From Pseudo-nitzschia pungens (lineage: Eukaryota; Bacillariophyta; Bacillariophyceae; Bacillariales; Bacillariaceae), in the NCBI GenBank assembly GCA_037355855.1, contig CM074759.1, forward strand, positions 8,494,001 to 8,558,000: 64,000 bases of DNA, in the 5' to 3' direction. The position numbers were made by a program, and so were the translations under genes. The notes under the pieces are model-generated. The model was not told where the DNA came from. It saw only the letters and a program-made list of their open reading frames with translations, and did no database searches. Shown one piece after another: positions 25,372 to 41,797 of this stretch (its first letter is position 1; each line of letters begins with the position of its first letter).

Positions 25372-26181
25372 CAGGGGTGATAATAGAAAGGGGTGCGCCA
25401 CTGCGCGAAGGAAAAAATTACCTGTGCGTGGGACAAATAACAAAACCTGTACCTGAGAATTTTTTTCATTTTTGTTTTTAACTAACAAACACTAGTTAAA
25501 ATACCTTAACTTCAGATAGCAATAACTCAGTCAAAAATCAATTCTAATCTTTATTTCAAATACCTGCATTATAGTTTAAACTGTTTTAAACAAGAATATT
25601 CAATAAAAATGAGGTTTTGAACGAGTATAAGGTCATCTATTACTGATACAAGATTGTAGGCCATTTTTTTCTTCAGACGTGCTACAAATTGTCAGTCATG
25701 CACCCGACTTCTCCAGTCATGCACCGAAATTTGCCAGTCATGCACCGAAATTTGCCAGTCATGCACCGAAATTCGCCAGTCATGCACCCAAAAAGGCCGT
25801 AAATCAATCATATGTTTCATACCTAAGACAGGTATCTTTTGCGAAAAAAGCCAAAAAAAGGCCTACAACCTTGTATCACTAATAGATGACCTTATACTCA
25901 TTCAAAACCTCATTTTTATTGAATATTCTTGTTTAAAACAGTTTAAACTATAATGCAGGTATTTGAAATAAAGATTAGAATTGATTTTTGACTGAGTTAT
26001 TGCTATCTGAAGTCAAGGTATTTTAACTAGTGTTTGTTAGTTAAAAACAAAAATGAAAAAAATTCTCAGGTACAGGTTTTGTTATTTGTCCCACGCATAG
26101 GTAATTTTTTTTTTCAGATTTGAATGGAGTTTTTGTACGAGTGCGCGGATCGTGGCGCACCCCTCTCTATTATGACCCCTG
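25372..26181. mobile_element. Foldback hAT-type MITE, copy 2 (810 bp)
   Basis: Same family as 7028-7816, with CAGGGGTGATAATAGAAAGG at the left end and its mirror, with substitutions, at the right. GTAATAC is duplicated at both flanks (25365-25371 and 26182-26188), 7 of the expected 8 bp. The loop is in reverse orientation relative to copy 1 and has five CAGTCATGCACC repeats instead of four. Non-coding. Confidence 0.87.
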
Positions 26182-26350
26182 GTAATACAGGGGACAGCAG
26201 CAACGCGTCGATAATACGACAGGGGACAGCAGCAACGCGTCGATAATAGGACAGGGGACAGCAGCAACGCGTCGATAATACAGCAGGGGACAGCAGCAAG
26301 GACACGTCGATAATACAGGGGACAACAGCAGTACTATAGAGGGGACAGCT

Positions 26351-26649
26351 GAGCGTAATGCAATCCCCTTATTATTGCTGACGAGCAAATATCAACGCAC
26401 TAGAGTTCGCAAATGATTCCTTATCGGGATTTAACGTCACCTACGAATCTCTTTTTTTGATATGTACTTTCATCTCGACTTGATAAATGAAAAACAATAA
26501 ATATGATGCTTGCATGCTCGCCTTGACTTGTGAGAAAGGGATGCATGACTGTCGAGTGGGAGATAAATGTAATATGCAATCGCGTAGAAAAAGAATTGTC
26601 ACAGCGTCTGCTGTTGATGGCCAGACCAAACGTTTACATTGCAGCCAGG
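26351..26649. other. Spacer; contains the displaced 3' end of the interrupted surface-protein gene
   Basis: The last bases before the 13-kb element (TTACATTGCAGCCAGG, 26634-26649) are the minus-strand end of the gene now at 39904-41797: joined across the element they read FLAAM then stop. The rest is presumably that gene's original downstream region. Confidence 0.6.
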
Positions 26650-26939
26650 AACATGGTTGATTTTTAAAAAAATAGTTCAAATTAAATTTTTCCAACCCCC
26701 TGAATCGCGCGCGCTTTAGTTTTTGGTTGAGGCACAAGAGGTTTCGAAAAAGGGAAAAAAAAATTGTAAATTCTTAAATCCCCATGACCCTTTTTGTTTC
26801 AGTTGTCACAAGAGAATTTTTTTGAGAAGAAATTCCGATTGAACCCCCCCCCCCCTCGATAAACTATTTTTTCTTTTCGCGAACACGTAATCGCCAAAAT
26901 CGCTAAAACTTATCGCTAAACCTTGGTCGCCACTTTGCA

Positions 26940-27110
26940 GGTGGTGTCGTCTACTGGTGTCGACTGGTGTCGACTGGTGTCGACTGGTGTCGACTGGTGT
27001 CGTCTGGTGTCGACTGGTGTCGACTGGTGTCGACTGGTGTCAACTGGTGTCAACTGGTGTCGACTGGTGTCGACTGGTGTCGACTGGTGTCATGACGAAC
27101 GCTGGTGTCG
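26940..27110. repeat. Left subterminal array of ACTGGTGTCG
   Basis: About sixteen 10-bp units of ACTGGTGTCG starting about 290 bp inside the left end of the element. The same unit, on the same strand, lies about 280 bp inside the right end. Confidence 0.9.
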
Positions 27111-27329
27111 TCTGGTGTCATTACGAACAGGACGAACAGGACGACTAAGAGTAAGATCACTTGTTCGTCTGTCTATTGTCGTCTAGCTGGTTGTCTGTTT
27201 GCTTGTCTTGTCTGTTTTGTCTCTCTGATCGTCTTATCAGTCTGTTCCCGAACGAACGTCACAGACGAACATAAGAACAGACAGACAAACAGACACTACT
27301 GAGCGTACGCTAGTACCATACTACGTATT

Positions 27330-27430
27330 ATGTTCGTCAATCTGTCTGTTCGTCTGTTCGTCTGTCTATTTCGTCTGTCTGTTCGTCTATATTCTTGCTC
27401 GTCTGTCTGCCTATCTGTCTGTTCGTAAAC
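27330..27430. repeat. Left array of TCTGTCTGTTCG
   Basis: Units of GTCTGTCTGTTC and GTCTGTCTATTTC. A much longer array of the same units is at 38990-39430, on the same strand. Confidence 0.85.
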
Positions 27431-27549
27431 GTACAACGTACGTACGCGTTGTACTATTTCTACCTATTTTTCACTGGACCGATGCAAACGGCAGGCGTGT
27501 CTTGTACCGGTACAACAACCCCGTGCCCATCGCTAGTCCCTGTACACAC

Positions 27550-28665
27550 ATGGCGATATTGCGATCATCAAAAATGGTGATCCCTATTAAATGGAACAAT
27601 GATTGCGGAGAAGATATCGACGCGCAAGTTGCGGCAAGAACATGTCCGGAGGTAGCTACCACTTTAGCAGCAACTAATGAAACGAGACAGACAGAGGCAA
27701 GCGAGGTAGCCACGGATTTGGAACCGACAACTCCCGGAGCAAGCGAAACGAGGCAGACAGAGGCAAGATGCGCACGGCAGACACGGAGGACACGGGACGA
27801 ACATATTGAGTCAGATAAACGCAAACTTTGTCAGTGGATTTTGACAGCAAGCGCAGGAAATGAAAAGTACTTTTATGGCGGACAGGCCAGGCGTGATGCG
27901 CTTCATCAACTATGTGTCGATTTGATGGAAACGAATGTAGGCCTTGTCCTACTACACGAAGATTTGGTAGCTAAGAACGGAAAGCGCATTCACATTAAAA
28001 TAGAGTCAAAGCCGTCTTCGCCCCTTTCACTACCGATCAGTTTTCCAACGAGTCAAACTGTAGTTCCATGGGCGAAGAGTAAAGCAAAGGAAGCACTTTC
28101 TAGATTGTTGAGGGATGAGACTTCATGGGTCAACAAAATGATTGCTGACAATCCTACATTTGGTGTCAGGCGCAGCCGAACCACAGTTATTACAATTGAG
28201 AAGATTCACGCTTCTTCCGCTCTCTTCCAACCTTTCCCTTTCCAAAATTTCAAAACCAACTTCCTTAATTTGAAACAAACTATCGATACAGAAAAGACTA
28301 ATGTCGAATTCGATGAACAGGCATTTCAAACAGAAAGATTGAAGTATCCGCAGGAACGCATACTGAAAGTCGGATATGTTCGATGGAATCATCCAGATAA
28401 TCCCCACCGGAAGTTATTAGAAGAAGACACTAAGAAAGGTGGAATTTACGATGTTCAAGGCATGAAACCAATGGGTTTGAAGGCGTTGAGACCAGAATAC
28501 AGTGATCTACCCCCCGACGTTTTTCGGGACAGAGTTTACAGAACGATTCGAGCTCACAGAGAAGTTCCGTATTGGGTAGACAAAAGAAACAGAGCAATGC
28601 GAAAGGACAGGGTAACAGAGGAGGAATTATCCAAGCTTGACTTGAGTCAAATGAAGATCAGTTAG
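27550..28665 (+). CDS. Unrecognised transposon protein, 371 residues
   Basis: The ATG at 27550 is the first in the frame; open codons before it lack ATG. The N-terminal 100 residues are polar and repeat ETRQTEA. The body has a mixed helix-like composition with KAKEALSRLLRDETSWVNKM, a Phe-rich patch (ALFQPFPFQNFKTNFLNL) and a basic end (YWVDKRNRAMRKDR). No catalytic or zinc-binding motif and no membrane segment is visible. It is the first gene from the left end and is transcribed rightward, with the transposase facing it on the opposite strand 160 bp further on. Function unknown; a DNA-binding or accessory transposition protein is possible but only by position. Confidence 0.7.
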   Translation: MAILRSSKMVIPIKWNNDCGEDIDAQVAARTCPEVATTLAATNETRQTEASEVATDLEPTTPGASETRQTEARCARQTRRTRDEHIESDKRKLCQWILTASAGNEKYFYGGQARRDALHQLCVDLMETNVGLVLLHEDLVAKNGKRIHIKIESKPSSPLSLPISFPTSQTVVPWAKSKAKEALSRLLRDETSWVNKMIADNPTFGVRRSRTTVITIEKIHASSALFQPFPFQNFKTNFLNLKQTIDTEKTNVEFDEQAFQTERLKYPQERILKVGYVRWNHPDNPHRKLLEEDTKKGGIYDVQGMKPMGLKALRPEYSDLPPDVFRDRVYRTIRAHREVPYWVDKRNRAMRKDRVTEEELSKLDLSQMKIS

Positions 28666-28827
28666 TTGAACGTATCTATCTAATGTCACGAACAAGAACA
28701 GCAATCTAATGTCACGAACAATTGGTCTGTTCAATCAATAAACTATGTATTATTAGTTGAGACTTCTGTCACGAACAAGTCTATAAATTATTCTTTTCGT
28801 TGGTCCAAACGATGATCGCCATCATAT

Positions 28828-29855
28828 CTAGACTTCGAATAAAGGGTGGCCACTTTCGATTTCGTATTGTACCAAGATACAAACGGCTCTAAATGTAGCC
28901 GCATGGCGCTGGATGGAATGGCGAAACGTTGTGCCCATAGAAGTAAAAGACTTTATGCGAGCATTGAAAGTTTCTTGTCGAGATTTAGCTCTTGCTTTGA
29001 ACTCTTTCACTTCTCCCGAGTCCCCTTGACGTGTTATTGAGATGGATATTCCATCTTCGCCACAGTAAGCGCTGTCGGCAATAGCTCGCTTGCCCGCTGG
29101 AATCATACTTTTCAAACTTGGCTGTGGGTTAGACTCGTCACCATCGCCGAATCTGAAGATTGAAATATCATGTCGTGATGCAGGGTAAGGACCTCTGATC
29201 CACACAAGTCGATCGGACCTGACAGAAATTGCCAGTTCGTATGCAAGACCCGCCCCATGAAACTTATGTGAATACCACTTGCTGCTTGGATCTGTTCGAA
29301 CCTCCTGTATCGGGCAGTGGATACCGTCGACCGAGACAATGAAAGTGTCCATATCATTGATTTCTCCTTCTTCGAACCATCTGATTTTGAACTGTTGAAG
29401 CTGTTCAATCGCCTCTGTGTAGATTTTGGTTTTCGTGATAATAACATTCTTGCACATACCCCAGGGTCCTTCTATCTTTGCATAAGTAGGGTATGCTTTG
29501 AGCCAATGCAACGTTAAGAATAGATGTTTCAAACTGAACTTCTTGATGCGGTTCTCGTCGTCAATTAGAGTTTGCAAATCTCGGATCAAATGCATTACAG
29601 TCAGAGGAGTGACACCATAATTTGCTCTGAATCGCTCGATGTTCCGTTCTTTCCTGACACTGTTTTGACGAACACTGTTGAAATGGACATACTTTAATCC
29701 AAAAGTAAAACATCATCTTCACTGGGTGCAATGACCGGCTGGTTTTTTCTTCGATTTCTTGGAATTGCCCTGCCAGATGACTTTGAAGTTGCTTCATTGG
29801 TATTTTCGGGGCTTGCACTTGTAGCCTCTCCCGGTTGTTTACATAATATTACCAT
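28828..29855 (-). CDS. PIF/Harbinger-type DDE transposase (DDE_Tnp_4); frame break near 29696
   Basis: This is the likely transposase of the element. The acidic triad can be read as the first Asp in VSVDGIHCPIQEV, the second in GPYPASRHDISIF, and the final Glu in SRQETFNARIKSF; ADSAYCGE lies between the last two. The N-terminal part RKERNIERFRANYGVTPL, typical of this family, lies upstream of the ATG at 29595 in the same frame. Further upstream the sequence continues in another frame (APSEDDVLLLD) back to an ATG at 29855; one missing T in GGATTAAAG near 29696 explains the switch. A product of about 342 residues is usual for the family. If the break is real the copy may be inactive or may start internally. 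No helix-turn-helix is seen; the DNA-binding partner could be another protein of the element. Confidence 0.85.
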
Positions 29856-30446
29856 TGCTTCAATTTTTTTTATGACAAAATTACTTGTACGTACTGCTCT
29901 GCGTTCGCGAACGTTGGGGTGCTTGTACGTCTTGGTTCTGTACGATGTACGATACTCGTACCGTAAGGTTACTCTCCGCGTTCAAATAAAAATTTCGTGT
30001 TCATCGGGAGACTCCGTTCGGGATAGGGCTTTATTAAAAAAGGAAGAACCGCGTACGCTACCGGTACGTATGATGAACTTGCGCTTCGAAACTTCCTGGT
30101 AACCTTACCGGTACGTACGCTTAATACCGAATATCCCTTTCTGCTGTTAAAATCTAAATCTAAAAATTACTGTAACAAGTTACCGTTACCTTACCGTAAC
30201 TTACGGTACCGTACTCGTAAGGTTAATTCAAATTAATCCTCATTGTCATAATCTGTGTTCACATACTTTTTCGTGGGTCTGCAATGATAACGAACACTAT
30301 GGTTGCTGATTTTGAAGTCGTTTGAATTAAATTGGCGATGTAACAAAAAGTTGGAGTTCTGAACCAGTTATTGAAGGATGTGCACCTTTGCAAGTTCGAT
30401 CGCGATTTGATGGTTTGCACGAGCGTAGTGATCTCATAAAAAATTG
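29856..30446. other. Spacer inside the 13-kb element
   Basis: No gene. One GTTCGCGAAC palindrome at 29903-29912, and dense GTAAGGTTA/CGTACC words at 29930-30230. It lies between the divergently transcribed transposase and the gene at 30447, so it probably holds both promoters. Confidence 0.5.
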
Positions 30447-31550
30447 ATGAACAAGCCCGAAAGCACAGCTGCTACCATTGCTTTGTTCAGGCTGATCGCG
30501 AACGACAGAGTCGATCTTTGTAACTTGAGTCCACATTTAGATCTCAACACAGATCTGTTTGGAACCCGCGGCAGTAAGACTCGGGAGTACTGGCGTAACT
30601 CAATCAAGAATTGGAAGCGCAGGAAAAAATTACCACCATCCTATTTTGTTTCTGACATCGATAAAGAATTGGTCAACAAGGTTCAAGAAAGACTTTTAAG
30701 TTTTCAACCCTCTTCACGAACATCCTCACGAACATCCTCACGAACATCCTCACAAAAAGCTCCAAGCATTGTTCGCACGCCTATCAAGCCACCGAGAAAC
30801 GATTCAACCATGTTCCGAAAGCAGCTGCGCCTAACAAGACCAGACTGCGAAACCTTCCTGAACACCGAAAAGCCTATTGGAAATATTCAAGGATGTGTTG
30901 CGCTTGTGACGATGTTGGCTGAGGAAACTTTTCCTCATCGATCCTCCAAAGGGAATAACCCGAAGAGCAAGAAACTTACTCTGTACTTTCCGGTTTGGGA
31001 TCCCAATGACATTGTGGAAAAACTATACGCGGCGCAACTTACCGAAGATGGCGATGGTGTTGTCGTGAAGTTGCCTGCAACATCCACCTTCATGCATTCA
31101 AAGGAAGAAGCAATTCACAGGGATCCGTATGCATCCACCAGCACCACTGAGATGGACACCGCCACCACCGCCACCACCTCCACCGGAAAGGAGTTTGTGC
31201 CTCTTTGCGAAAACACTTTCATGTTCTACAAGAGCAAGGTTGTCACACCTATACAAAAGAAAGAGGTAAAGAATGAAATAATCGTTCTTTACAAATTCAA
31301 AGACATGGTGGGCTCGAACGACCTCTTCAACAAGGACGCCGATGGAAATCATCCTACTAATCCTTACGACCTCGAACTACGTCATTCCATTTGGGTTGAT
31401 CAAGTGGGGTCGTCAAAGCAAGCAAACGTGTGTGCTACTGTCTACTTTGAAATTGCCCTTGAATCCGAAAACAACATCCGAAACCTCAAATACGATAACG
31501 ACGCGATGTCGGTGGATGCCTTGTTTAAAAATTTGCATTTTGGCGAGTAG
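30447..31550 (+). CDS. Unrecognised transposon protein, 367 residues
   Basis: The ATG at 30447 follows a TTG codon in the same frame. Visible features are an N-terminal segment (TIALFRLIANDRVDLCNLSP), a basic helix-like stretch (YWRNSIKNWKRRKKLPPSYF), three RTSS repeats, and a longer C-terminal half with LTLYFPVWDPNDIVEKLYAA, KNEIIVLYKFKDMVG and CATVYFEIALE, which has a beta-rich look. No known catalytic motif. The frame is clean, which argues that it is maintained or recently active. Function unknown. Confidence 0.7.
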   Translation: MNKPESTAATIALFRLIANDRVDLCNLSPHLDLNTDLFGTRGSKTREYWRNSIKNWKRRKKLPPSYFVSDIDKELVNKVQERLLSFQPSSRTSSRTSSRTSSQKAPSIVRTPIKPPRNDSTMFRKQLRLTRPDCETFLNTEKPIGNIQGCVALVTMLAEETFPHRSSKGNNPKSKKLTLYFPVWDPNDIVEKLYAAQLTEDGDGVVVKLPATSTFMHSKEEAIHRDPYASTSTTEMDTATTATTSTGKEFVPLCENTFMFYKSKVVTPIQKKEVKNEIIVLYKFKDMVGSNDLFNKDADGNHPTNPYDLELRHSIWVDQVGSSKQANVCATVYFEIALESENNIRNLKYDNDAMSVDALFKNLHFGE

Positions 31551-31796
31551 AAACTGTTGTGTGTCGGTGTGTCGGTATGAACTAGAATAGTGTTAACGTA
31601 ACTCTAACTTCAAAATATTATTTTTCGTCGCCTTCGCATTCTTTTTTCAAAACCGGTAGAAGACCCGCCAGGATTCGGACCCTTCGACGATGGTGCAACT
31701 GAACTTGTCAGGAAGCCTGATGAACCCGTCGGGAACCTCGTTGACGAACAAGCCGGTCAGTCCCTCATCGACGAACAAGTCGCAAAAGCTCGTCGG

Positions 31797-32066
31797 ATGA
31801 AGAAAATATTCACTATTCTCGAAAATTCTGAGAACAGAGGAGAAGAAAATCCGAAGCGTAGAAGTAATGATAGAATTCACAGTGATGCTCAGGAAAAAGG
31901 TATGAAAGCAGCAGAATCATCCCGTCAGAAAAAGAAAGATGAAAAAATCAGACAATTACGAAAAAATGGAGACCAACTAAATTTTTATCAACGGCAACAG
32001 GAAGCTGCAACAAAGGGTCAGGAGTACTACATCGAATGGTTGGCCTCCAACCCTCCCCCCGAATGA
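31797..32066 (+). CDS. Small charged transposon ORF, possibly one exon
   Basis: The ATG at 31797 gives 89 residues with a basic coiled-coil-like segment (SSRQKKKDEKIRQLRKNGDQ). The same frame is open upstream to about 31650 and reads EDPPGFGPFDDGATELV and two VDEQ/IDEQ repeats, so this may be the second exon of a longer gene with a 3' splice site near 31658. No function recognised. Confidence 0.4.
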   Translation: MKKIFTILENSENRGEENPKRRSNDRIHSDAQEKGMKAAESSRQKKKDEKIRQLRKNGDQLNFYQRQQEAATKGQEYYIEWLASNPPPE

Positions 32067-32072
32067 CTACAT

Positions 32073-32294
32073 GTGGTCCCCGACTGTGATTCAGTCAATT
32101 CTTTCGATACATCTTTGAAATCATCCGATCTTGACCCCATTGGCACCTTTTACGAGGCCGGGGCAATACTTTTGGAGCTCCGCGACTACATGAGCACCAG
32201 GGCTAGCTCGACAGAAAAAGACGGCGATGGTTTTGAGATAGAATTAGATTTTGATCTTGACAACATGTCACTAGATCTTGACGACATGTCATGA
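32073..32294 (+). CDS. Acidic ORF without an ATG, possible last exon
   Basis: About 73 codons with no in-frame ATG near the beginning, ending in an acidic repeat (DFDLDNMSLDLDDMS). It follows the previous ORF by 6 bp in a different frame. A spliced or frame-broken continuation of 31797-32066 is the simplest explanation. Function unknown. Confidence 0.3.
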   Translation: MVPDCDSVNSFDTSLKSSDLDPIGTFYEAGAILLELRDYMSTRASSTEKDGDGFEIELDFDLDNMSLDLDDMS

Positions 32295-32319
32295 AGTGTA
32301 AACTTATTAGATAACTGTA

Positions 32320-32991
32320 TCAATTATTGCCAAAGAAATTACCGGAGACTTGAACTGGTTCGCGAACGCCTTCTTTGGGAGTCTGAACTGGTTCGCGAAC
32401 TTCTTTGGGAGTCTGAACTGGTTCGCGAACTTCTTTGGGAGTCTGAACTGGTTCGCGAACGACTTCTTTGGGAGTCTGAACTGGTTCGGGAACGCCATCA
32501 GAGTTTGTTGGGGAAGGCTTGACCCAAAAGTGGACTCGCCCTGCCTCATCGGCGTAGCGGGCTTCAAATTTATTATCGGTAGGTGCGTCGAAGCCGTCCT
32601 CGTCGAAGTCGTCTTCGTCGTAGTCGTCTTCAGGATAACGATATCGCTTAATTCCAGCTTTAATTTTCGCACATGAGAAAGCATCATCAGCAACAAACTT
32701 GTAGGCATCCTCAAGAGACAAGAACGACTCAATAACTGTTGCTGGAAACTTGTGGTGAAGTTCAATGTAAATATTGGAATCCAACAACTCGATTTCATGC
32801 ACCATGTTCCAGGGTGCCCTGAGAGTGATTTGACCTCTGTTTTCGTTCAAAGAGGTAATGGTGGCACCCTTGAGCAAAGTTGCATAGTCGCACTCTTCCG
32901 CGTTGCGAAGGACATTGACCATAGCAATAGTTGCAGGTCCTTTCATGCGGGTGATTACAATGTAACGGCGGATGAATGTTGAGGTAGGCAT
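32320..32991 (-). CDS. Unrecognised transposon protein with REPVQTPKEV repeats, 223 residues
   Basis: ATG at 32991. The first 115 residues look globular (FIRRYIVITRMKGPATIAMV, ITLRAPWNMVHEIELLDSNI). An acidic DDYDEDDFDEDGFD stretch follows, then five REPVQTPKEV repeats of 10-11 residues before the end (GNFFGNN). The repeats carry the four tightly spaced GTTCGCGAAC palindromes at 32358-32460, so the coding repeat may be a by-product of a DNA-level array. Function unknown; the acidic tail is compatible with a regulatory role. Confidence 0.65.
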   Translation of the reverse strand: MPTSTFIRRYIVITRMKGPATIAMVNVLRNAEECDYATLLKGATITSLNENRGQITLRAPWNMVHEIELLDSNIYIELHHKFPATVIESFLSLEDAYKFVADDAFSCAKIKAGIKRYRYPEDDYDEDDFDEDGFDAPTDNKFEARYADEAGRVHFWVKPSPTNSDGVPEPVQTPKEVVREPVQTPKEVREPVQTPKEVREPVQTPKEGVREPVQVSGNFFGNN

Positions 32992-33269
32992 TGTTATCGA
33001 TTCAACAGAAAATTATGGCATGATGTAACAACTAAGATCTAACATGACATCGCGTAAGTATCACGCTTGTCAATGTATTTTTGCCGGACCGAATTTTTTT
33101 GAATTTCAAATGTTTCATAGGACCGACTAATAAAAAAAGACGTTTCTTGTTAATGTGATTCGCCTAATAATTTTCTTTAATGGGTGGCATACTTCGTTAT
33201 GACTTCTTACCCCAAAGGGATCTCGTGGATGCTATACTTCGTTTCATTTTTTATACGAGTTATTTTTCG

Positions 33270-33545
33270 TACCCCCAGAGGGATTAGAGCTTTTGAGTCT
33301 CATGGATGTTCGCGAACGAAGGCTTCGTTCACGAACGCAGAAAGGCAATCGATTCTTATGAGACGTCTTGGATGTTCGCGAACGAGTTTCATAACGATAT
33401 TTTTCGTACCCCCAGAGGGATTAGAGCTTTGAGTCTCATGGATGTTCGCGAACGAAGGCTTCGTTCACGAACGCAGAAAGGCAATCGATTCTTTTGATGA
33501 GATGTCTTGGATGTTCGCGAACGAGTTTCACGTTCAGTCTTCTTC
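33270..33545. repeat. Two tandem ~136-bp units
   Basis: The block from TACCCCCAGAGGGATTAGAG to the next TTTTTCG occurs twice in tandem, each carrying two GTTCGCGAAC palindromes (33308, 33374, 33444, 33513). It lies just beyond the 3' end of the gene at 33534-34205. Confidence 0.85.
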
Positions 33546-34205
33546 CATTCGCAAACGATGGGGGTTGAGAAAGACATCGTTCAGGAACAGAAAGCTTGCA
33601 AGCTGTGCCATGGACTTTGCTTCAAGGGAGAACTCCTCAGGAGTCATATGTTTCGCAATGAGAGGGATTGACTCGTACTTTCCTTCCCCATGTTCCAATG
33701 GGTCCCAACCATTGCTACCAGAACCTTTGCCATTGTAGTATTTGTAAGACCAAAATTTGTAACAAATGATCATGGAGATACGGCCTAGCTTCGCAAATTG
33801 AAATAGGGACTCTGGTGCCGTAGCGAGGTCGGGTCTCATCGCACTGGGATTGCGGAGAGAGATCACTTCTACTCCGCGTTGACAACCCGCATGAAAGTCT
33901 GCATACACAGAGTTTGCATCATCGTCGTCATCATTCGAATGACGTTGTTTGCGCCACAGGGAATTGTCACTAATGAGGCAATAGGAAGTCTTGGGAAAAT
34001 GCATAGGCTGAGGCTTGGGAATAGTAGGCAGTTCAAGTTCATATCTGGCTTGTGTTGTGTGCTGTTCGTCTTCGAGAATGTGCTGTTCGTCTTCGAGTTC
34101 TCGAAAGCGTTGCAGTAGGTCTTCGAATTCGATGTCATCGTCTACAGGACGGTACGGAGCGTCGTAGAAAAGCGGCATGTTGACAAAAACCCAATCGAAC
34201 TCCAT
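33534..34205 (-). CDS. Unrecognised transposon protein, 223 residues
   Basis: I choose the ATG at 34205 (MEFDWVFVNM); the frame is also open upstream to an ATG at 34325, which would add a hydrophobic 40-residue leader (ALFVIVSIVKLL). Visible parts are an acidic heptad-like segment (LLQRFRELEDEQHILEDEQH), a HSNDDDDDANSVYADFHAGC stretch, and the end LASFLFLNDVFLNPHRLRME. If the upstream start is used the protein would be membrane-anchored. Function unknown. Confidence 0.6.
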   Translation of the reverse strand: MEFDWVFVNMPLFYDAPYRPVDDDIEFEDLLQRFRELEDEQHILEDEQHTTQARYELELPTIPKPQPMHFPKTSYCLISDNSLWRKQRHSNDDDDDANSVYADFHAGCQRGVEVISLRNPSAMRPDLATAPESLFQFAKLGRISMIICYKFWSYKYYNGKGSGSNGWDPLEHGEGKYESIPLIAKHMTPEEFSLEAKSMAQLASFLFLNDVFLNPHRLRMEED

Positions 34206-34325
34206 GTTGAAAATGTCTAACAATAAGTTGAGGGACAAAATGATTACGAACGTCTGAGAGATGTCTAACAACTTCACGATGGAGACAATCACAAACAATG
34301 CGAGGGTTTTCTCAGGCGAAAGCAT

Positions 34326-35069
34326 TTTGCATCAGACAGTCTTGGCGAATTATGTGATAAAAAGTATAGGGAGCAGAATCATTATCGATGATTCTTAGCG
34401 ATTTTCCCGGACGGCATCATCTTCGCGGTCTCTTTGACTGTTGCAGTAACGTGTAGTGTTTTGTTCAGTTTCCTCAGCTCTCGCCATCTTTGATCTTTGG
34501 CAATATGTTGGTAATACGCATGAATCATTGACGACGGAAGGTGAAGAGACACGAGTAGGAGTAAGGTTACACGGGTGCCCGGCTACGTTCTTAGTCACAT
34601 TAATCGCCAAAACCTGTTCGTAGAATGTTCGTTAACTATTACGAGGTAAGACCCATTTGGGGGAACATGCGAAGAATTTACAACCGGTACTAGACGACGA
34701 ACAGATCGCCAACACTTCGGTGAAACTTACACGACTTACCGTAAAAACCTTACGATATGGTAATGGTAACTTGCAAGCCTTACTTGTCCTCGTATTTGTG
34801 AAGTTACTGTACGGTACGTTCGCGAACAGCTCATAATAATCTCCCACAACCAGACTATTGCCAATGAAACCATGAAACAACGTGCCCGTTGTCAACGTGC
34901 CCGTTGTCCGTTTAGACCTGATATGTTGCGACGCAGATCACGGCGAGTGACGGAGATCACGTGTGGATGATGATGGTTCGCGAACAAGTGATGGTTCGCG
35001 AACAAGTGATGGAAATGATTTCACATTGCTTAGTCGAAGCATTTCTGTACCAAAAAAGGCTGATAATCC
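34326..35069. other. Spacer with three GTTCGCGAAC palindromes before the Ulp1 gene
   Basis: No gene. Palindromes at 34818-34827, 34976-34985 and 34994-35003, the last two within 100 bp of the Ulp1 start codon and embedded in a tandem ATGGTTCGCGAACAAGTG. They are candidates for operator-like sites of the element. Confidence 0.5.
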
Positions 35070-38000
35070 ATGACGATGCCCATCAATAACGTCGATGACG
35101 ACGAGCACTGCGAGGAGAGAATTGAGTTGGACACTCTTCGGGGCTGGTTCCGTCAAGCCGAACCAGAAGATGACTACAAACAGGAAGATCAGGAAGATCA
35201 AAGCTTCTTAGCCAACAAAGAGCGTGATGATGAAGTTTTGGTCAAATTTCCATTTGAAGCAACTGAGGCTGCATTAGAAGATGCATCAGTGAATTTAAGT
35301 GAACTTTCCTGGAGAGACCCTGAACCCACAAATGAACCAAACACACAAACGCCTATTGAAATTCTTGTGAGCGATTACCGGAGACTTAATGATGGAAATC
35401 ATCTAAATGATTCATTATTGAACCTGTGGATGCATTGGATTTCACGCTACAGCAGTGACGTTTATATCTTCCCGACATGGTTCTACACATATTTGAATAG
35501 TGAAGGGGTTGAGAAAGTCAAATCCTGGGTACACTTCAACATTTTCGACAAGAAGCTTCTTTTTTTCCCAACCAACGTTGACAACTTGCACTGGAATCTA
35601 TCTGTCGTTGTAAACCCCGGGGCGATAAACGACGATGCCAACAGCACCTATTTGTTGATTTTTGACTCATTGGGTTGCGAAGAGGATTACAAGAAAGGTG
35701 TTCGCAAAAATCTTGTTAATTGGCTAAACGATAGATGGAATGATGAGACTGGGCCATTCAGCGAAGTCAAAATCTACGAAGCAAAAGTTCATCGGCAGAC
35801 CAATTCCTTCGACTGCGGTGTCTGTGTCTGTCGCTATGCCCTCGGTATGCTTCAACTGAAGCACTCCACAGAACTTGAAGCGGTTCAGCTTTGCATCGCA
35901 AGCGAAGACATATTTGACTTTGATGTTGCCGAAATGAAACGGTTTCGCCGCGATTTGAAAACCTTTATTCGGAGGCTCAGTTCGCTTTACGAACAGACAG
36001 ACTGCGCTCTCAAACAGCACGTACAAAACGAGGCAGCAAAAAATGCGGAAAGTGACGAAACCAAGGAAGCTGCGGAAAGTGACGAAACCAAGGAAGCTGC
36101 GGAAAGTGACGAAACCAAGGAAGCTGCGGAAAGTGACGAAACCAAGGAAGCTGCGGAAAGTGAAGAAACCAAGGAAGCTGCGGAAAGTGAAGAAACCAAG
36201 GAAGCTGCGGAAAGTGAAGAAACCAAGGAAGCTGCGGAAAGTGAAGAAACCAAGGAAGCTGCGGAAAGTGAAGAAACCAAGGAAGCTGCTCAAATAGCGC
36301 AAAATAAAGAAACCAAGGAAGCGGCTGGAACAGCTCCCACCGACAACATGGAAAGTGAAGAGACGAACAAGGATATGAATGCAAAAATTGGAGGAATCAA
36401 GAAGGAGGAAGATGAAGAACCTTTCATCGGAAAGACTATCGAGGATTCACACGTCTCCAATCCATTCTTTAGCAAGCAGACGTACGCAACATCGGTCCAA
36501 GCAGATGAATTGTTTTCCTTTCATAAGTTAGATGAGGATGCTGTACTATTTCATGACGAACAGCCATTTTCGCCAATATTGAGTCGTTGGGATTGGACAC
36601 CAGTCGTTCATCCAACTATCAAGCACGTCAATGCAATGAGAGACGACCCCGAAGCTAAGTTTCGATTCTGCGAAGATCGGATGTTTCGGGAATACGAATA
36701 TGAACACATTGATAGATCGATTGAGATTCATGACGTGGATGAAAATATATCATTTCATCCACGTCTGACAGGGCCCTATCGACGATCAGTGTTTTTTGAC
36801 AATGAAGTTCAACTTGTTGAGAACGAAAAGGAAGGACGCCCAGATCCCCAAATTGAAGAAGAGGAAGAGGACGTGCGCCCAGATCCCCCCACATGGAATG
36901 ACTATAATGCCGAGCTTGAGGTTTTCACTAGGGATAGACCTCCTTATATCATACGGGCAGACGAACAGGTATGTAGGTCTCCTTATGTCGTACGAACACG
37001 ACGAACAGACGAACGGGAGTGGAGATCTCCCTGCAGAAGAACAGGACGAGCAGAAGAACAGGACGAACAGGACGAACAGGACGAACAGGAGAACTTGCCG
37101 TCACGATTGGCCCCACGAGATCTCCAGAAATCATTTTGCGATAGTTCAAAGGAACTGGTCCTGTATTATCAAAATCTTCTAGGGGTGGAGACGACAGAAA
37201 GAGAAGCAGATCATGGAAGCCATGAATCAGGCACAGCAATTGGAAGTCCATATCATGCTCTAATGTCAAAGACAAGAGGCAACAACAGGGTTTTTTCGCA
37301 CGCCTTGAATCAGAAATCCTGGCCATGGGAGAAGAAACAGTTAAGGGTAATGGCACAGTCGCCTGGAAAGCAATCAGCACGGCGGCCGCCGCCGCCGATA
37401 CTGAAAAGAACGAGACAAAAAATTCCCGTTGACGAAAAGGCTCTTGCGGATCTGGTCATCCACGACGAACGAAAGCCAAACTCTATCCAAGAAACGTCCG
37501 AAGCAAACTCGATTCAGGAAGCGTCCAAACCAAAATCTATTATGCTCAGTTCTCACAACTTTCATTCATTTGCCAGGACTTTACGGAAGTCTCGGGCAAA
37601 GAAGACAACGTTCCACAACCGCACAGTAATGTATTTGGTTGAAAACCTGACGAACAAGAGAGAAGCGAACACGGTTAATTTTTTACCTAGGAAAAGAGAA
37701 CTACACTGGAAATCCATAATAGGAAATACGAAAGAAGCCAGAGGTATCCTTGCAGAAATAGACGACGCCGTAGAACGAAATCACCACAAAATCATCAAAA
37801 GGATTAAGAAAGACACATGCAAAAACTGCGTTGTAAATCCGTCGTATTCGCAAATAGTACTCCAAGCATTTGCACCGGACACATCAGATGACGAAACTGA
37901 CATGGACGCATGTTCAAAAAAAGGCGGCAACTTGGTGGGATCTAAGAGAAAGCAACCATTAGCTGCTACGGCGTCATCGATGGTCAGTACTAAGAAAGCT

Positions 38001-38795
38001 CGAAATACAGCACCTGCCATGGCGTCAGCGCAAAAGAATGCGGAAACTGGACATTCAGCAACGAACATCACAGCTGCCGAGGCGTCATCGAAAAAGAGTA
38101 AAGAAACTCAACATGCAGCAACGAACACGACAGCTACCGAGGTGTCAAATGCAGCAACGAACACGACAGCTACCGAGGTGTCATTCAATAAAGAAACTCG
38201 ACACGCAGCAACGAACACGAAACCCCCTCCTACAGATGAATTCACAGAGGCAGCAGTCATATTGGTCTCGGTCAAAACCGAGCCAAATGACAAGAATAAT
38301 CCGAAGGAGGACATCCCGTTGGAAACTGAGGGTGAACTAAATCATGAACAAGCAAAGGAGCAGCCGGAAAATTTGCCAAAGGACGAAGCTGCCAAATCGA
38401 AGGCAGCGATTAAAAAAGGGAGGAAATCAACGACTGCAAACGAAGTGTCCGCGAACCCTAGAACTCGGGGTCACAGCAGACGAAAACTTCCCTTGAAGAA
38501 AGAATCAACATCGCAGGATATGCAATCAAGCAAGTCAAAATCGTCGATCTTTCCCAAAGAATATCGCGGAAAGGTATTGTGGAAGCCTCCTAAGGCGTAT
38601 CACGAACGTTGGGATTTCATGCGACTAATCGGAGAAAAGAAGAAAGCCACCCAATTTTATTGCATTGCTTGTGATTCTACAGGAGCGTACACTGCCCAGT
38701 CATCGTCACAAATGAAACGTCATTCAGACACTGCTGAGCACAAAAAAAAGGCTGCCGAATTCAAACGAAAACATCCCTCCCATTTCTCAAAATAA
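35070..38795 (+). CDS. Ulp1-type (C48) SUMO-protease domain fused to a C-terminal zinc finger, 1241 residues
   Basis: ATG at 35070, one intact frame. Residues ~90-310 form a Ulp1/SENP-like cysteine protease: LNDSLLNLWMHWI entry, FPTNVDNLHWNLSVV with the catalytic His, LLIFDSLG with the Asp, and RQTNSFDCGVCVCRYA with the oxyanion Gln and nucleophile Cys. All key residues are present. An array of nine AESD/EETKEA nonapeptides follows (36040-36290), then an acidic linker, Glu/Gln-Asp repeats (37040-37095) and a long basic, low-complexity region. The last 70 residues carry FYCIACDSTG and MKRHSDTAEHKKKAAEF, a CxxC...HxxxxH finger like those of transposon DNA-binding proteins. Ulp1 domains are known from several plant and fungal transposons. 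Here the fusion could target desumoylation to element ends; that is inference. Confidence 0.9.
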   Translation: MTMPINNVDDDEHCEERIELDTLRGWFRQAEPEDDYKQEDQEDQSFLANKERDDEVLVKFPFEATEAALEDASVNLSELSWRDPEPTNEPNTQTPIEILVSDYRRLNDGNHLNDSLLNLWMHWISRYSSDVYIFPTWFYTYLNSEGVEKVKSWVHFNIFDKKLLFFPTNVDNLHWNLSVVVNPGAINDDANSTYLLIFDSLGCEEDYKKGVRKNLVNWLNDRWNDETGPFSEVKIYEAKVHRQTNSFDCGVCVCRYALGMLQLKHSTELEAVQLCIASEDIFDFDVAEMKRFRRDLKTFIRRLSSLYEQTDCALKQHVQNEAAKNAESDETKEAAESDETKEAAESDETKEAAESDETKEAAESEETKEAAESEETKEAAESEETKEAAESEETKEAAESEETKEAAQIAQNKETKEAAGTAPTDNMESEETNKDMNAKIGGIKKEEDEEPFIGKTIEDSHVSNPFFSKQTYATSVQADELFSFHKLDEDAVLFHDEQPFSPILSRWDWTPVVHPTIKHVNAMRDDPEAKFRFCEDRMFREYEYEHIDRSIEIHDVDENISFHPRLTGPYRRSVFFDNEVQLVENEKEGRPDPQIEEEEEDVRPDPPTWNDYNAELEVFTRDRPPYIIRADEQVCRSPYVVRTRRTDEREWRSPCRRTGRAEEQDEQDEQDEQENLPSRLAPRDLQKSFCDSSKELVLYYQNLLGVETTEREADHGSHESGTAIGSPYHALMSKTRGNNRVFSHALNQKSWPWEKKQLRVMAQSPGKQSARRPPPPILKRTRQKIPVDEKALADLVIHDERKPNSIQETSEANSIQEASKPKSIMLSSHNFHSFARTLRKSRAKKTTFHNRTVMYLVENLTNKREANTVNFLPRKRELHWKSIIGNTKEARGILAEIDDAVERNHHKIIKRIKKDTCKNCVVNPSYSQIVLQAFAPDTSDDETDMDACSKKGGNLVGSKRKQPLAATASSMVSTKKARNTAPAMASAQKNAETGHSATNITAAEASSKKSKETQHAATNTTATEVSNAATNTTATEVSFNKETRHAATNTKPPPTDEFTEAAVILVSVKTEPNDKNNPKEDIPLETEGELNHEQAKEQPENLPKDEAAKSKAAIKKGRKSTTANEVSANPRTRGHSRRKLPLKKESTSQDMQSSKSKSSIFPKEYRGKVLWKPPKAYHERWDFMRLIGEKKKATQFYCIACDSTGAYTAQSSSQMKRHSDTAEHKKKAAEFKRKHPSHFSK
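36040..36290 (+). repeat. 27-bp coding repeat in the Ulp1 gene
   Basis: Nine in-frame 27-bp units. The first four encode AESDETKEA and the last five AESEETKEA, differing at a single codon position (GAC versus GAA). The block structure suggests recent expansion of two founder units. Confidence 0.92.
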
Positions 38796-38989
38796 TACAG
38801 CCGCACATAATTATGAAGTAAGGTAAGGTTACGAAAGGACGGTACGGTATTAGCTTGTACGAGTTAGTACGGTGCACGAACAGGCAGTCGAAACTGACAC
38901 GTTCGTCTGTTCTGGTTAGCAGACATTAGTCACACCACACCGACGAACACAAAGTAGACGAACAGTCAAGGAGTAAGGTTTAACCGTAT

Positions 38990-39430
38990 GAGTCTACTCG
39001 TCTGTTCGTCTGTCTATTTCGTCTGTCTGTTCGTCTGTCTATTTCGTCTGTCTATTGTCTGTTCGTCTGTCTGTTCGTCTGTCTATTTTGTCTGTCTATT
39101 TCGTCTGTCTGTTCGTCTGTCTATTTCGTCTGTCTGTTCGTCTTTCTATTTTTTCATCTGTCTATTTCGTCTGTCTATTGTCTGTTCGTCTGTCTGTTCG
39201 TCTGTCTATTTTGTCTGTCTATTTCGTCTGTCTGTTCGTCTGTCTATTTCGTCTGTCTGTTCGTCTTTCTATTTCATCTGTCTTTTCGTTGTCTATTTCG
39301 TCTGTCTATTGTCTGTTCGTCTGTCTGTTCGTCTGTCTATTTCGTCTGTCTATTTCGTCTGTCTGTTCGTCTTTCTATTTCATCTGTCTTTATTTCGTCT
39401 GTCTGCTCATCTGTCTACTGTCTGTTCGGT
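38990..39430. repeat. Right array of TCTGTCTGTTCG
   Basis: About 440 bp of GTCTGTCTGTTC and GTCTGTCTATTTC units with ~125-bp higher-order periodicity (TCATCTGTC markers). Same strand as the short left array at 27330. Confidence 0.9.
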
Positions 39431-39484
39431 AGCGACGTGTTCGTCTGTTCGTTCTGTTTTTCTAGTGTATCTGTTCGTTTGTTT

Positions 39485-39635
39485 GCTGGTGTCGGCTGGT
39501 GTCAGCTGGTGTCGGCTGGTGTCGACTGGTGTCGACTGGTGTCGACTGGTGTCGTCTGGTGTCGACTGGTGTCGACTGGTGTCGACTGGTGTCGCTGGTG
39601 TTGACTGGTGTCGCTGGTGTCGACTGGTGTCGGTC
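39485..39635. repeat. Right subterminal array of ACTGGTGTCG
   Basis: About fourteen 9-10-bp units of CTGGTGTCG(A), ending about 280 bp from the right end of the element. Confidence 0.9.
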
Positions 39636-39903
39636 ATGGGCTGGAAGTGAGTTGGTTGCTATCGCTGAAACTATCGCCAAAATCTGAGGGGTCATGGGAA
39701 TTTTGATAGTTCGATCAAATTCGGACTAATTTATTTTTGGGTGATCGGGAATTTGAAGGAAAAACATTTCACCTAAAATCGGAGGGCTAAGAGAATTTAA
39801 TTTTCTATATTTTCTATATTTTTTTAATATGCGCACCATTTTGTGCGTGTCGAGCGCGCATGGGGGCTTCCATAAATTGTTCCGGACTGCAATTTTTTAA
39901 AAA

Positions 39904-41797
39904 TCAACCATGTTCCAGGAACAAAGAAAGGAGTCCGGTTCCGAAAACGATGCTTGTGGCAACGCCACTGCAAAGGATCATGGCCGGAGCGGACAAACCG
40001 TCCAAACCATCGTCAGAAAGACCAACCGTTGCAGAAAACGTATCTTTTTCCAACTCCTGGAGGTTGCGGGGGTGATTCGACGCTCTGAACAGACCTGAAA
40101 AACCGACAGACTCAAGGAGACGACGTCCCAGACCGAGTTGCGAATCAAGGCAGTGCGTTTTCAATTCAGCCGCAACTTCAGTCGGCGTGGCCAATGAAGT
40201 ACAATGAAATTGATAAAGAGTAGCTCCGTGCGAAAACTTAGGGCCGGGAGCCGCTGTATAATTGAACCTATTAAGGAAGTCCTGCTGATGAAAAGTTAGG
40301 GTTTCGGGGGTGGCCCAACATACTTGAAATTGGGTACCTTCCGTAGGAAATAGTGCGTACAACTTCATCGGATCTTTCTTGTTCGCGTCGAAATCAGCAA
40401 GAACAGGCTACGAACAGCAAAAATGTGAGTCACTCGAATTCCACAAAGATCAGTTCTCGTCATTCTCTTGAATTACTCACCTTTCTGGAGGGTTGCAAAA
40501 AGACGGAATTTGCATCGCAAAATGGCGGGAACCCCTTCCCCCAAGCTACCCCAGTGTCACTTGTTCCAAACAGCTTTGTCGCAGAACTGAATCCATCGAT
40601 TCTTTTGTACGTGATACCATTGAAACCCGAGGTGATGATTTCAGTTATATCATGAGGCACTAAGGGTTGAATTGTTGATACAGATTGGAAGACCAATATA
40701 TCCATATTCATTGTCAGACCCCCCCAACATGGGGGTTTGGAGGAGAGGAATACCAAACTTTTGGCAAACCCCAACCCCAACGTAATCCAGAGCCACTTCA
40801 CCACTGCATGAAAAAGAAGTTTCACCAGCTCCAAAATACCCCGCAGTCACAACACTGCTGAAAACTCCTATACTTGTATTTCCGCCAAGAGCACCTCCAG
40901 AAGTATTTGTGTAACCAGTGGTAGTGAAATTCAATGTTGTGAGGGTGTCTGGTTTGGAATTCACAACCAACTGGCGCGACGATGCCGAGTTCTCACAGGT
41001 TACGTTCGTAAAATTCGCGATACTGTAATACTCAGCCGTCGGGCTCACGCAGATGGAAAAATCTTGACCGATTTTGTAGTTCGATGATGCACTGGCGCCT
41101 TTGGCACACAAAACAGCTTCCACCGCAACGGATTTGGTCACGTTCTCTGTAAGGTTCCCCATAGCTGTTGATGTGATGTTGACGGTTTGGGAGAAGTTGG
41201 AAAACTTGGCAACGAGGTCAACGTTGAGTTCCAATAGGGTATCGACATAGGACACATACTCATCCCCTTCCGAAGAAGAATCAATGTCTTTCTTAATGCC
41301 AGTACGGGCACCTGAAAAAACACAAAAGGATTGTTAGTACGGAAAGATCCTGAAAACAACAAATGCAAACCCATACAACAGTTTGTGCCTCACTTACAGA
41401 GATCCACCTTTCCATTGTAATATGCTGGAGTTGTCGTGACATCTGGAATGGAGTATTGAGCAGCAAAAATTTTACTATTTGAACCTGTCTTGGTGTATGT
41501 TGGTCCAATGCTTGTCGACACATTGAAAGTCGAATTTGAGATAGCCGTACCAGTGCTGCATGGCTTACCGTCAGAGGCATTTGCGAAAAGCTCAAACGTA
41601 GCAATACCTGGAACAGTAGACACCGACTCAAAATAAGTCTCGACGACGAATGGTTCAACAGTAAGAACTTTACCGAATGGACTAGACGAACCATCCCCTG
41701 CCGGACGGATTTCATAGTTGCCCATCACAGTAAGAGCACCATGGGCACACCATGTCCCAGAAAGGGCAACGGATGCAAGAGCGATCAGTCTCATCAT
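39904..41797 (-). CDS. Surface protein paralogue without DUF285 repeats, 3' end interrupted by the 13-kb element
   Basis: ATG at 41797 opens a signal peptide (MMRLIALASVALSGTWCAHG). The ectodomain parallels the DUF285 proteins: VVETYF...FELFANASDGKPCSTGT, KIFAAQY...TPAYYNGKVDLC, YVSYVDTLLELNVDLV, VEAVLCAKG, FSICVSP, TSFSCSGEVAL. Intron 41312-41397 splits a Cys codon T|GT exactly as in the DUF285 genes; a second intron fits at 40408-40480. Between them the frame changes at a run of seven C (40719-40725), a probable indel. A further domain (FGTSDTGVAWGKG to LATPTEVAAELKT) and a C-terminal hydrophobic segment (MILCSGVATSIVFGTGLLSL) follow. The final codons EHG and the stop come from the transposon end; the original end FLAAM lies at 26636-26649. 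Confidence 0.78.

Follow-up and report, generated by a model that had tools for sequence, protein, structure and literature searches.

A large, gene-rich Harbinger transposon with CWG target sites and a Ulp1 gene in Pseudo-nitzschia pungens

A 64,000-nucleotide stretch of the genome of the diatom Pseudo-nitzschia pungens (GenBank assembly GCA_037355855.1, contig CM074759.1, here C2:8494001-8558000; the window) contains a large, gene-rich, and young transposon of the PIF/Harbinger (PHIS) superfamily, which is of the CWG type with respect to its target sites and belongs to a lineage whose families have several additional genes in common. All in all, it is very probably a recently mobile cut-and-paste Harbinger within a multi-gene lineage of this genome. 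The original prediction, made from the window alone, had described a giant DNA transposon with a Harbinger-type transposase and a Ulp1 protease; its ends, genes, and relatives were traced here through the whole assembly (66.88 Mb, 28 contigs).

The unit is defined by five near-identical, dispersed copies with common boundaries. With the left 1 kb as a query, four further full-length places were found in addition to the window copy, and the 22-bp end matched both ends of 5/5 copies, one left end with 1 mismatch. The proposed search of the ends against the rest of the genome hence returned five copies with exactly these ends, beyond chance. The terminus lies at the identical base in all five, the copies are 13,267, 13,282, 16,276, 13,262, and 13,258 bp long, and their pairwise identity is 99.76 to 99.92% of the aligned columns (45 variable ungapped columns across the five). 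In the 16.3-kb copy, a 3,062-bp insert sits within the Ulp1 gene; it is probably a retroelement, and its 912-codon open reading frame (ORF; L012 3634-6369, minus strand) has weak matches to RNase_H (E 0.0087) and zf-RVT (E 0.01), both under the Pfam cut-off. The large size and gene richness claimed at the outset were borne out (13.26 to 16.28 kb, about seven predicted genes). The inverted repeats, predicted as 22 bp and perfect at 26650..39914, lie at that place and are perfect; their real length is 23 bp, starting with G (26649-39915).

Target-site duplications were surveyed in the flanks of 18 paired elements, i.e., 5 long and 13 short ones (L028 and, in L020, the first left arm gave no clean pair and were dropped). 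An exact 3-bp duplication is present in 18/18, with 9 CAG, 6 CTG, and one each of CCG, CGG, and CAT. The triplet is thus CWG in 15/18, and the TWA duplication of PIF/Harbinger in the narrow sense occurs in 0/18. The five long copies are flanked by CAG, CCG, CGG, CTG, and CAG, the CTG being that of the minus-strand copy on C2 in genome orientation, which reads CAG in the orientation of the element. A 5-bp CCAGG duplication, as originally predicted, was rejected, because the window reads C (flank), CAG (duplicated), and G (first base of the element). The apparent 5 bp arise because C precedes the left triplet in 9/18 elements and G succeeds the right triplet in 9/18. The seemingly different duplication length had also been taken as the sign of a distinct lineage, an argument that falls with a length of 3 bp as in Harbinger. 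On the contrary, the duplication argues for Harbinger, since duplication of CWG has been published for NuwaI, a group of PHIS/Harbinger elements characterized in sections of Han et al. (2015, PMC4482050).

The transposase could be assigned to DDE_Tnp_4, as predicted, with a Pfam match (E 1.9e-10) that spans positions 1 to 157 of the 158-position profile and with the triad D, D, E located by eye in VDG, SRHD, and RQETFN; a comparison with PDB sequences gave nothing significant (best E 0.48). The features shared with PIF/Harbinger are hence this transposase with its DDE triad, the 3-bp duplication, and the short (23 bp) terminal inverted repeats. Compared with the other four copies, one base is missing near position 29702 of the window copy, whose frame comprises 294 codons. 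This broken frame, together with short elements of 0.85 to 1.2 kb that have almost identical ends, are too small to hold the genes, and were nonetheless inserted, so that movement in trans does occur, would suit a non-autonomous hitch-hiker that is moved by the transposase of another family and for which its own transposase is dispensable. We regard such a hitch-hiker as quite improbable, given that the transposase frame is open over 384 or 418 codons in 4/5 copies and that only one substitution column was found in 28828-29712 among all five.

The presence of a Ulp1 protease is shared with several other superfamilies, including KDZ elements. Cases are described in parts of the literature for Ginger1 and Mutator (PMC2836005), Crypton (PMC3212892), and CACTA (treated together with MULE in PMC2528002), all of which combine Ulp1/C48 with other transposases or a tyrosine recombinase instead of DDE_Tnp_4. 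It is extremely improbable that the present element is a member of one of these Ulp1-bearing superfamilies, as its transposase is DDE_Tnp_4, its duplication is a 3-bp CNG, and the Pfam scan of 8 ORFs recognized no further domain of a transposase or recombinase.

The genome search with the transposase resulted in 28 matches, which belong mainly to six families, designated A to F, the few others being fragments or weak. Family A consists of the five copies plus an older one located on C1 (90% identity); the remaining families are B (61%, 3 places), C (36%), D (33%, 5 places), E (34%, 2 places), and F (35 to 36%, 6 places). A genome search with the DDE_Tnp_4 profile listed 65 places, family A itself not among them, and such lists are lower bounds. 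The older C1 copy is 91.6% identical over 2.1 kb and retains ORF1, the transposase, and the C-terminus of Ulp1, the part between them being missing. One copy each of families B, C, and D was read. Their sizes are 7.64, 9.45, and 8.29 kb, their duplications CAG, CTG, and CAG, and their inverted repeats start with GAA, GAC, and GGC, respectively (GAA in family A); the usual but not strict GGG start of NuwaI is thus absent from all four.

An all-against-all BLASTP comparison of the ORFs of families A to D revealed that the transposase (A-B 60%, A-C 33%) and ORF1 (A-B 8.8e-53, A-D 1.6e-12, A-C 1.5e-9) are common to all of them. P2 of family A has relatives in C (1.8e-4, C-terminal part) and D (6.4e-4, N-terminal part), and P3 has one in B (1.7e-17). 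A further protein, P4, is common to B, C, and D and also lies beside the transposase at the 6 places of family F; it was not found in family A, and comparisons of its profile with Ulp1, 33534, and 32320 yielded no match (hhalign E 0.55, 0.35, and 0.33). A transposase match lies at a distance of up to 20 kb from 15/18 ORF1 matches and 15/19 P4 matches, the chance expectation of such pairs being about 0.3 per gene for 26 transposase matches. Conversely, 15/26 transposase matches have ORF1 and 15/26 have P4 in what appears to be their own element; per gene, one of the 16 transposase matches counted joins a family A copy to a neighboring family F element on C2. For these counts, three transposase matches (C7:3002122, C2:8231376, and the second piece at C2:3887869) were left out, and of the additional matches from a further transposase search, only C7:2500530 was added; likewise omitted were the second piece at C1:3598394 (of 19 ORF1 matches), 9 of the 28 P4 matches (E >1e-6), and, of 13 Ulp1 matches, a second piece each at C6:2854857 and C1:691070.

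Families B, C, and D resemble the element in their CWG duplications, in ends that start with G, and in several genes, which indicates a multi-gene lineage and not a chance collection. The latter was rejected on the basis of the five copies with the same ends and of the relatives of ORF1, P2, P3, and 33534 in or beside other transposase-bearing elements. Because of these relatives, most of the cargo is, as judged from sequence comparison, linked to the lineage and not accidental; ORF 32320 lies outside that evidence.

The roughly seven predicted genes, which are known as open frames, are listed with their order and strands in Table 1. Only DDE_Tnp_4 and Peptidase_C48 (E 4.3e-14) were found above the Pfam cut-off in the 8 ORFs scanned. 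One copy other than that of the window differs by one base in 32320, another has the insert in its Ulp1 gene, and there are copies in which every listed frame is open. The four ORFs at 27550, 30447, 32320, and 33534 were correctly described as lacking recognizable domains, as no Pfam match emerged at E values up to 1. With regard to the Myb-like protein, the absence of which had been part of the original prediction, a Pfam scan that covered ORF1, P2, and relatives recognized no Myb, and support for the absence extends to the Pfam level. A second list of matches likewise contained no Myb chain, which has no power to exclude one. A dN/dS comparison (nonsynonymous versus synonymous substitutions) between families A and B gave no value due to saturation of dS.

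ORF1 may replace the usual Myb-like partner, and weak evidence suggests that it carries an R3H-like fold. Its profile had no significant match among PDB sequences (best E 1.1), nor did the respective piece of the protein, the profile of which retrieved only SF3A2 (E 0.39). In the protein database, the ORF1 profile found 2 matches among the 7994 candidates that share most words and were scored; the source label of the relative P0003, Psemu1, presumably denotes Pseudo-nitzschia multiseries. In viral_contigs, none of 129 pattern matches was confirmed. The predicted model of the P2 N-terminus is uninformative (pLDDT 50), and a diverged trihelix could be present. Single-sequence genome searches with P2 and 32320 gave no match outside the five copies, and the relatives of P2 emerge by direct comparison.

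Table 1. Features of the transposon, with positions in the window
Feature	Position	Strand	Evidence or remark
Left 3-bp target-site duplication CAG	26646..26648	.	Exact 3-bp duplication in 18/18 paired elements
Left terminal inverted repeat, 23 bp, GAACATGGTTGATTTTTAAAAAA	26649..26671	+	End comparison of copies
Left array of 10-bp units (GGTGTCGACT type)	26940..27120	+	Direct orientation; limits by eye
Left TTCGTCTGTCTA-type repeats	27164..27425	+	Repeat inspection
ORF1, conserved partner gene	27550..28665	+	Weakly supported R3H-like domain, approximately residues 75-163; two W..S.AK.LL modules seen by eye
DDE_Tnp_4 transposase	28828..29712	-	Pfam E 1.9e-10; frame broken near 29702 in window copy
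Upstream part of transposase frame, out of frame in window copy	29694..29981	-	Comparison with other copies
P2	30447..31550	+	N-terminal part, relative in family D; C-terminal part, relative in family C
P3 up to UGA stop (GAA UGA CUA)	31608..32066	+	Start not settled
P3, in-frame extension past stop	32067..32294	+	Conserved as protein with family B
ORF 32320	32320..33012	-	No relatives found in this genome beyond the 5 copies
ORF 33534	33534..34331	-	Three 48-49% relatives
Ulp1/C48 protein	35067..38795	+	His 35589-35591, Asp 35664-35666, Gln 35796-35798, Cys 35814-35816
Right TTCGTCTGTCTA-type repeats	38992..39430	+	Repeat inspection
Right array of 10-bp units	39487..39634	+	Orientation as left array; limits by eye
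Right terminal inverted repeat, 23 bp	39893..39915	-	End comparison of copies
Right 3-bp target-site duplication CAG	39916..39918	.	Exact 3-bp duplication in 18/18 paired elements

The Ulp1 ORF comprises 1242 codons and aligns with yeast Ulp1 (1euv, E 1e-8) and with SENP1, 2, and 5; the catalytic His, Asp, Gln, and Cys are in place by eye, in agreement with the original prediction. The C-terminal finger that had been proposed as well is visible by eye as a C2H2-type pattern (about 38655-38750) and had no match in Pfam. The product is likely a SUMO-removing enzyme, and a SUMO-linked control of transposition, as first suggested, is a plausible hypothesis. The genome search for PF02902 listed 21 matches, namely, 5 in family A, 3 in a repeat designated G, 8 of 31 to 32 bits, and 5 elsewhere. 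Seven of the eight matches of 31 to 32 bits lie in ORFs of 2770 to 2806 codons (C3:1853751, C11:1192902, C2:5058244, C3:5533643, C6:3231038, C10:830058, and C12:569073), which probably represent another Ulp1-bearing repeat family. A Ulp1 gene at C2:5166685 was rejected as part of an element, as a 1.0-kb short element merely adjoins it. In the protein database, neither the whole Ulp1 sequence (7993 candidates scored, the query words probably being spent on repeats) nor residues 41 to 345 (2064 candidates) found a match at E 0.001.

Ulp1, 32320, and 33534 could be passengers, i.e., the element could be a classical Harbinger that captured host genes without a role in transposition (transduplication). 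This would agree with the lack of detectable 32320 relatives elsewhere in this genome, with Ulp1 matches at places untied to such elements, and with the absence of Ulp1 from the single copies of families B, C, and D that were read, which keep several of the other genes. However, the three copies of repeat G (C8:2938494, C5:5027084, and C6:3322869; L067) contain a 1078-codon Ulp1 ORF 2 to 3 kb from P4, a protein that elsewhere accompanies Harbinger transposases; the genome searches detected no transposase in the vicinity of repeat G. Moreover, the relatives of 33534 lie at a constant distance of 535 bp from weak transposase matches (E 4.6e-4 to 2.6e-3) at three places, the Ulp1 frame is open in 4/5 copies and cut by the insert in the fifth, and the Ulp1 C-terminus is present, there with one TGA, even in the 8 to 9% diverged C1 copy. 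Transduplication is therefore considered unlikely.

P3 is a candidate for a gene with programmed stop-codon readthrough in a transposon. In both families A (window 31608-32294, plus strand) and B (L062 3561-4254, minus strand), it ends with NPPPE-UGA, followed by 75 (A) and 42 (B) open in-frame codons that are alike (SSDLDPI...EAGA.L.ELRD). A comparison of A and B over the 25 codons past the stop gives 7 identical, 9 synonymous, and 9 non-synonymous ones, as against 6, 7, and 7, respectively, for the 20 codons before the stop and 1 and 2 synonymous codons in the remaining two frames, over 24 codons in each. The context of the stop is UGA CUA in A (5/5 copies) and UGA CUC in B, the former being given in the relevant part of PMC4359377 as the high-readthrough consensus in human cells. 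A selenocysteine insertion sequence (SECIS) was not found in an Rfam search, which gave two weak matches below the gathering score, and inspection by eye found no shared intron that would keep the frame in both families.

The ends of the element carry arrays of 10-bp units. In the window copy, 15 GGTGTCGACT units (up to 1 mismatch) were counted on the left, 0 in the middle, and 11 on the right, compared with 1 per strand in the window outside the element; across the five copies, there are 13 to 18 units on the left and 9 to 13 on the right, all in one direction. Family B has TGTCCTCAAC arrays (10 and 9) in inverted orientation, so array orientation varies between families. The short elements (L017-L027, L066, and others) possess GAACATGGTTGATTTTT ends and CNG duplications, a by-eye count of such ends listed in the genome amounting to 35, and the arrays were kept at both ends in 6/6 examined (of 13). 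Since the two ends of a short element are alike for 17 bp only and also differ from those of the long element, a sister family may have made the short elements. The arrays, each unit of which spans roughly one helical turn and which survive in elements too short for genes, would be the best candidate for a platform on which proteins act in cis. Other repeats were also observed. GTTCGCGAAC palindromes recur within the element (33292-33525, 32351-32493, and 34976-35007), including a 70-bp stretch at 136-bp spacing. About 320 bp from the element, the window contains 32-bp tandem repeats of the ACAGGGGACAGCAGCAACGCGTCGATAAT type (26176-26330); a CAG-rich repeat resembling them is the insertion site of family D on C1.

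For this CWG-type Harbinger, a mechanism can be envisaged in which the transposase would cut at the 23-bp ends and make a 3-bp staggered cut in a CWG target. The Myb-like partner might be replaced by ORF1 and P2, which would bind nucleic acid and recruit the transposase to the ends, probably by way of the 10-bp arrays as a binding platform. Anchored to DNA through its finger, the Ulp1 protein could remove SUMO from proteins located at the element or the break, which would either undo silencing or ease repair. Taken further, the data may reflect an undescribed multi-gene lineage of CWG Harbingers in which the Myb-like partner is replaced by ORF1 (R3H-like) and P2, the modules P3, P4, 33534, and the DNA-tethered deSUMOylase are exchanged between families, P3 has two forms via UGA readthrough, and the Ulp1 branch counters silencing or helps repair. 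In this full form, the proposal is tentative, and we hold it to be possible and not probable.

Harbingers are model two-protein transposons. A lineage of about seven genes, several of which are shared between families, would demonstrate that this superfamily can build larger machines, and the near-identical copies make the lineage testable. The element adds a Harbinger case to the recurring link of deSUMOylating proteases with DNA transposons, the reason for which is an open question, and families with and without Ulp1 within one genome offer a natural comparison. In the open-access literature, i.e., excluding Repbase and most subscription papers, we found no published case of Ulp1 together with a Harbinger transposase.

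The stramenopile families Harbinger4_TP and PIF_Harbinger-1_PI, whose hosts we take from the abbreviations to be probably a diatom and an oomycete, are comparable by description only. As sisters of Nuwa, they have 3-bp duplications like the element (PMC12730594, in part). Harbingers of Ectocarpus have two genes, and its giant transposons are KDZ, EnSpm, and Sola-1, according to the portion of PMC12477816 concerned; for teleost Harbingers, see the corresponding part of PMC9179366. HarbingerS and PHISTA resemble the element in having added chromatin-related enzymes, and the TET-bearing Harbinger families have a third protein without Myb. The enzymes in question are SET or TET rather than Ulp1, and PHISTA duplicates TA (all from sections of PMC12730594). 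The likeness to NuwaI lies in the 3-bp CWG duplication, a DDE transposase of the same superfamily, inverted repeats within a range of 12 to 61 bp, and a G start. NuwaI elements, as portrayed in the pertinent sections of PMC4482050, average about 4.46 kb, contain two ORFs, the second of which is Myb/SANT, usually start their inverted repeats with GGG, and are reported only in animals, whereas the P. pungens element is 13 to 16 kb long and has about seven genes and no recognizable Myb/SANT.

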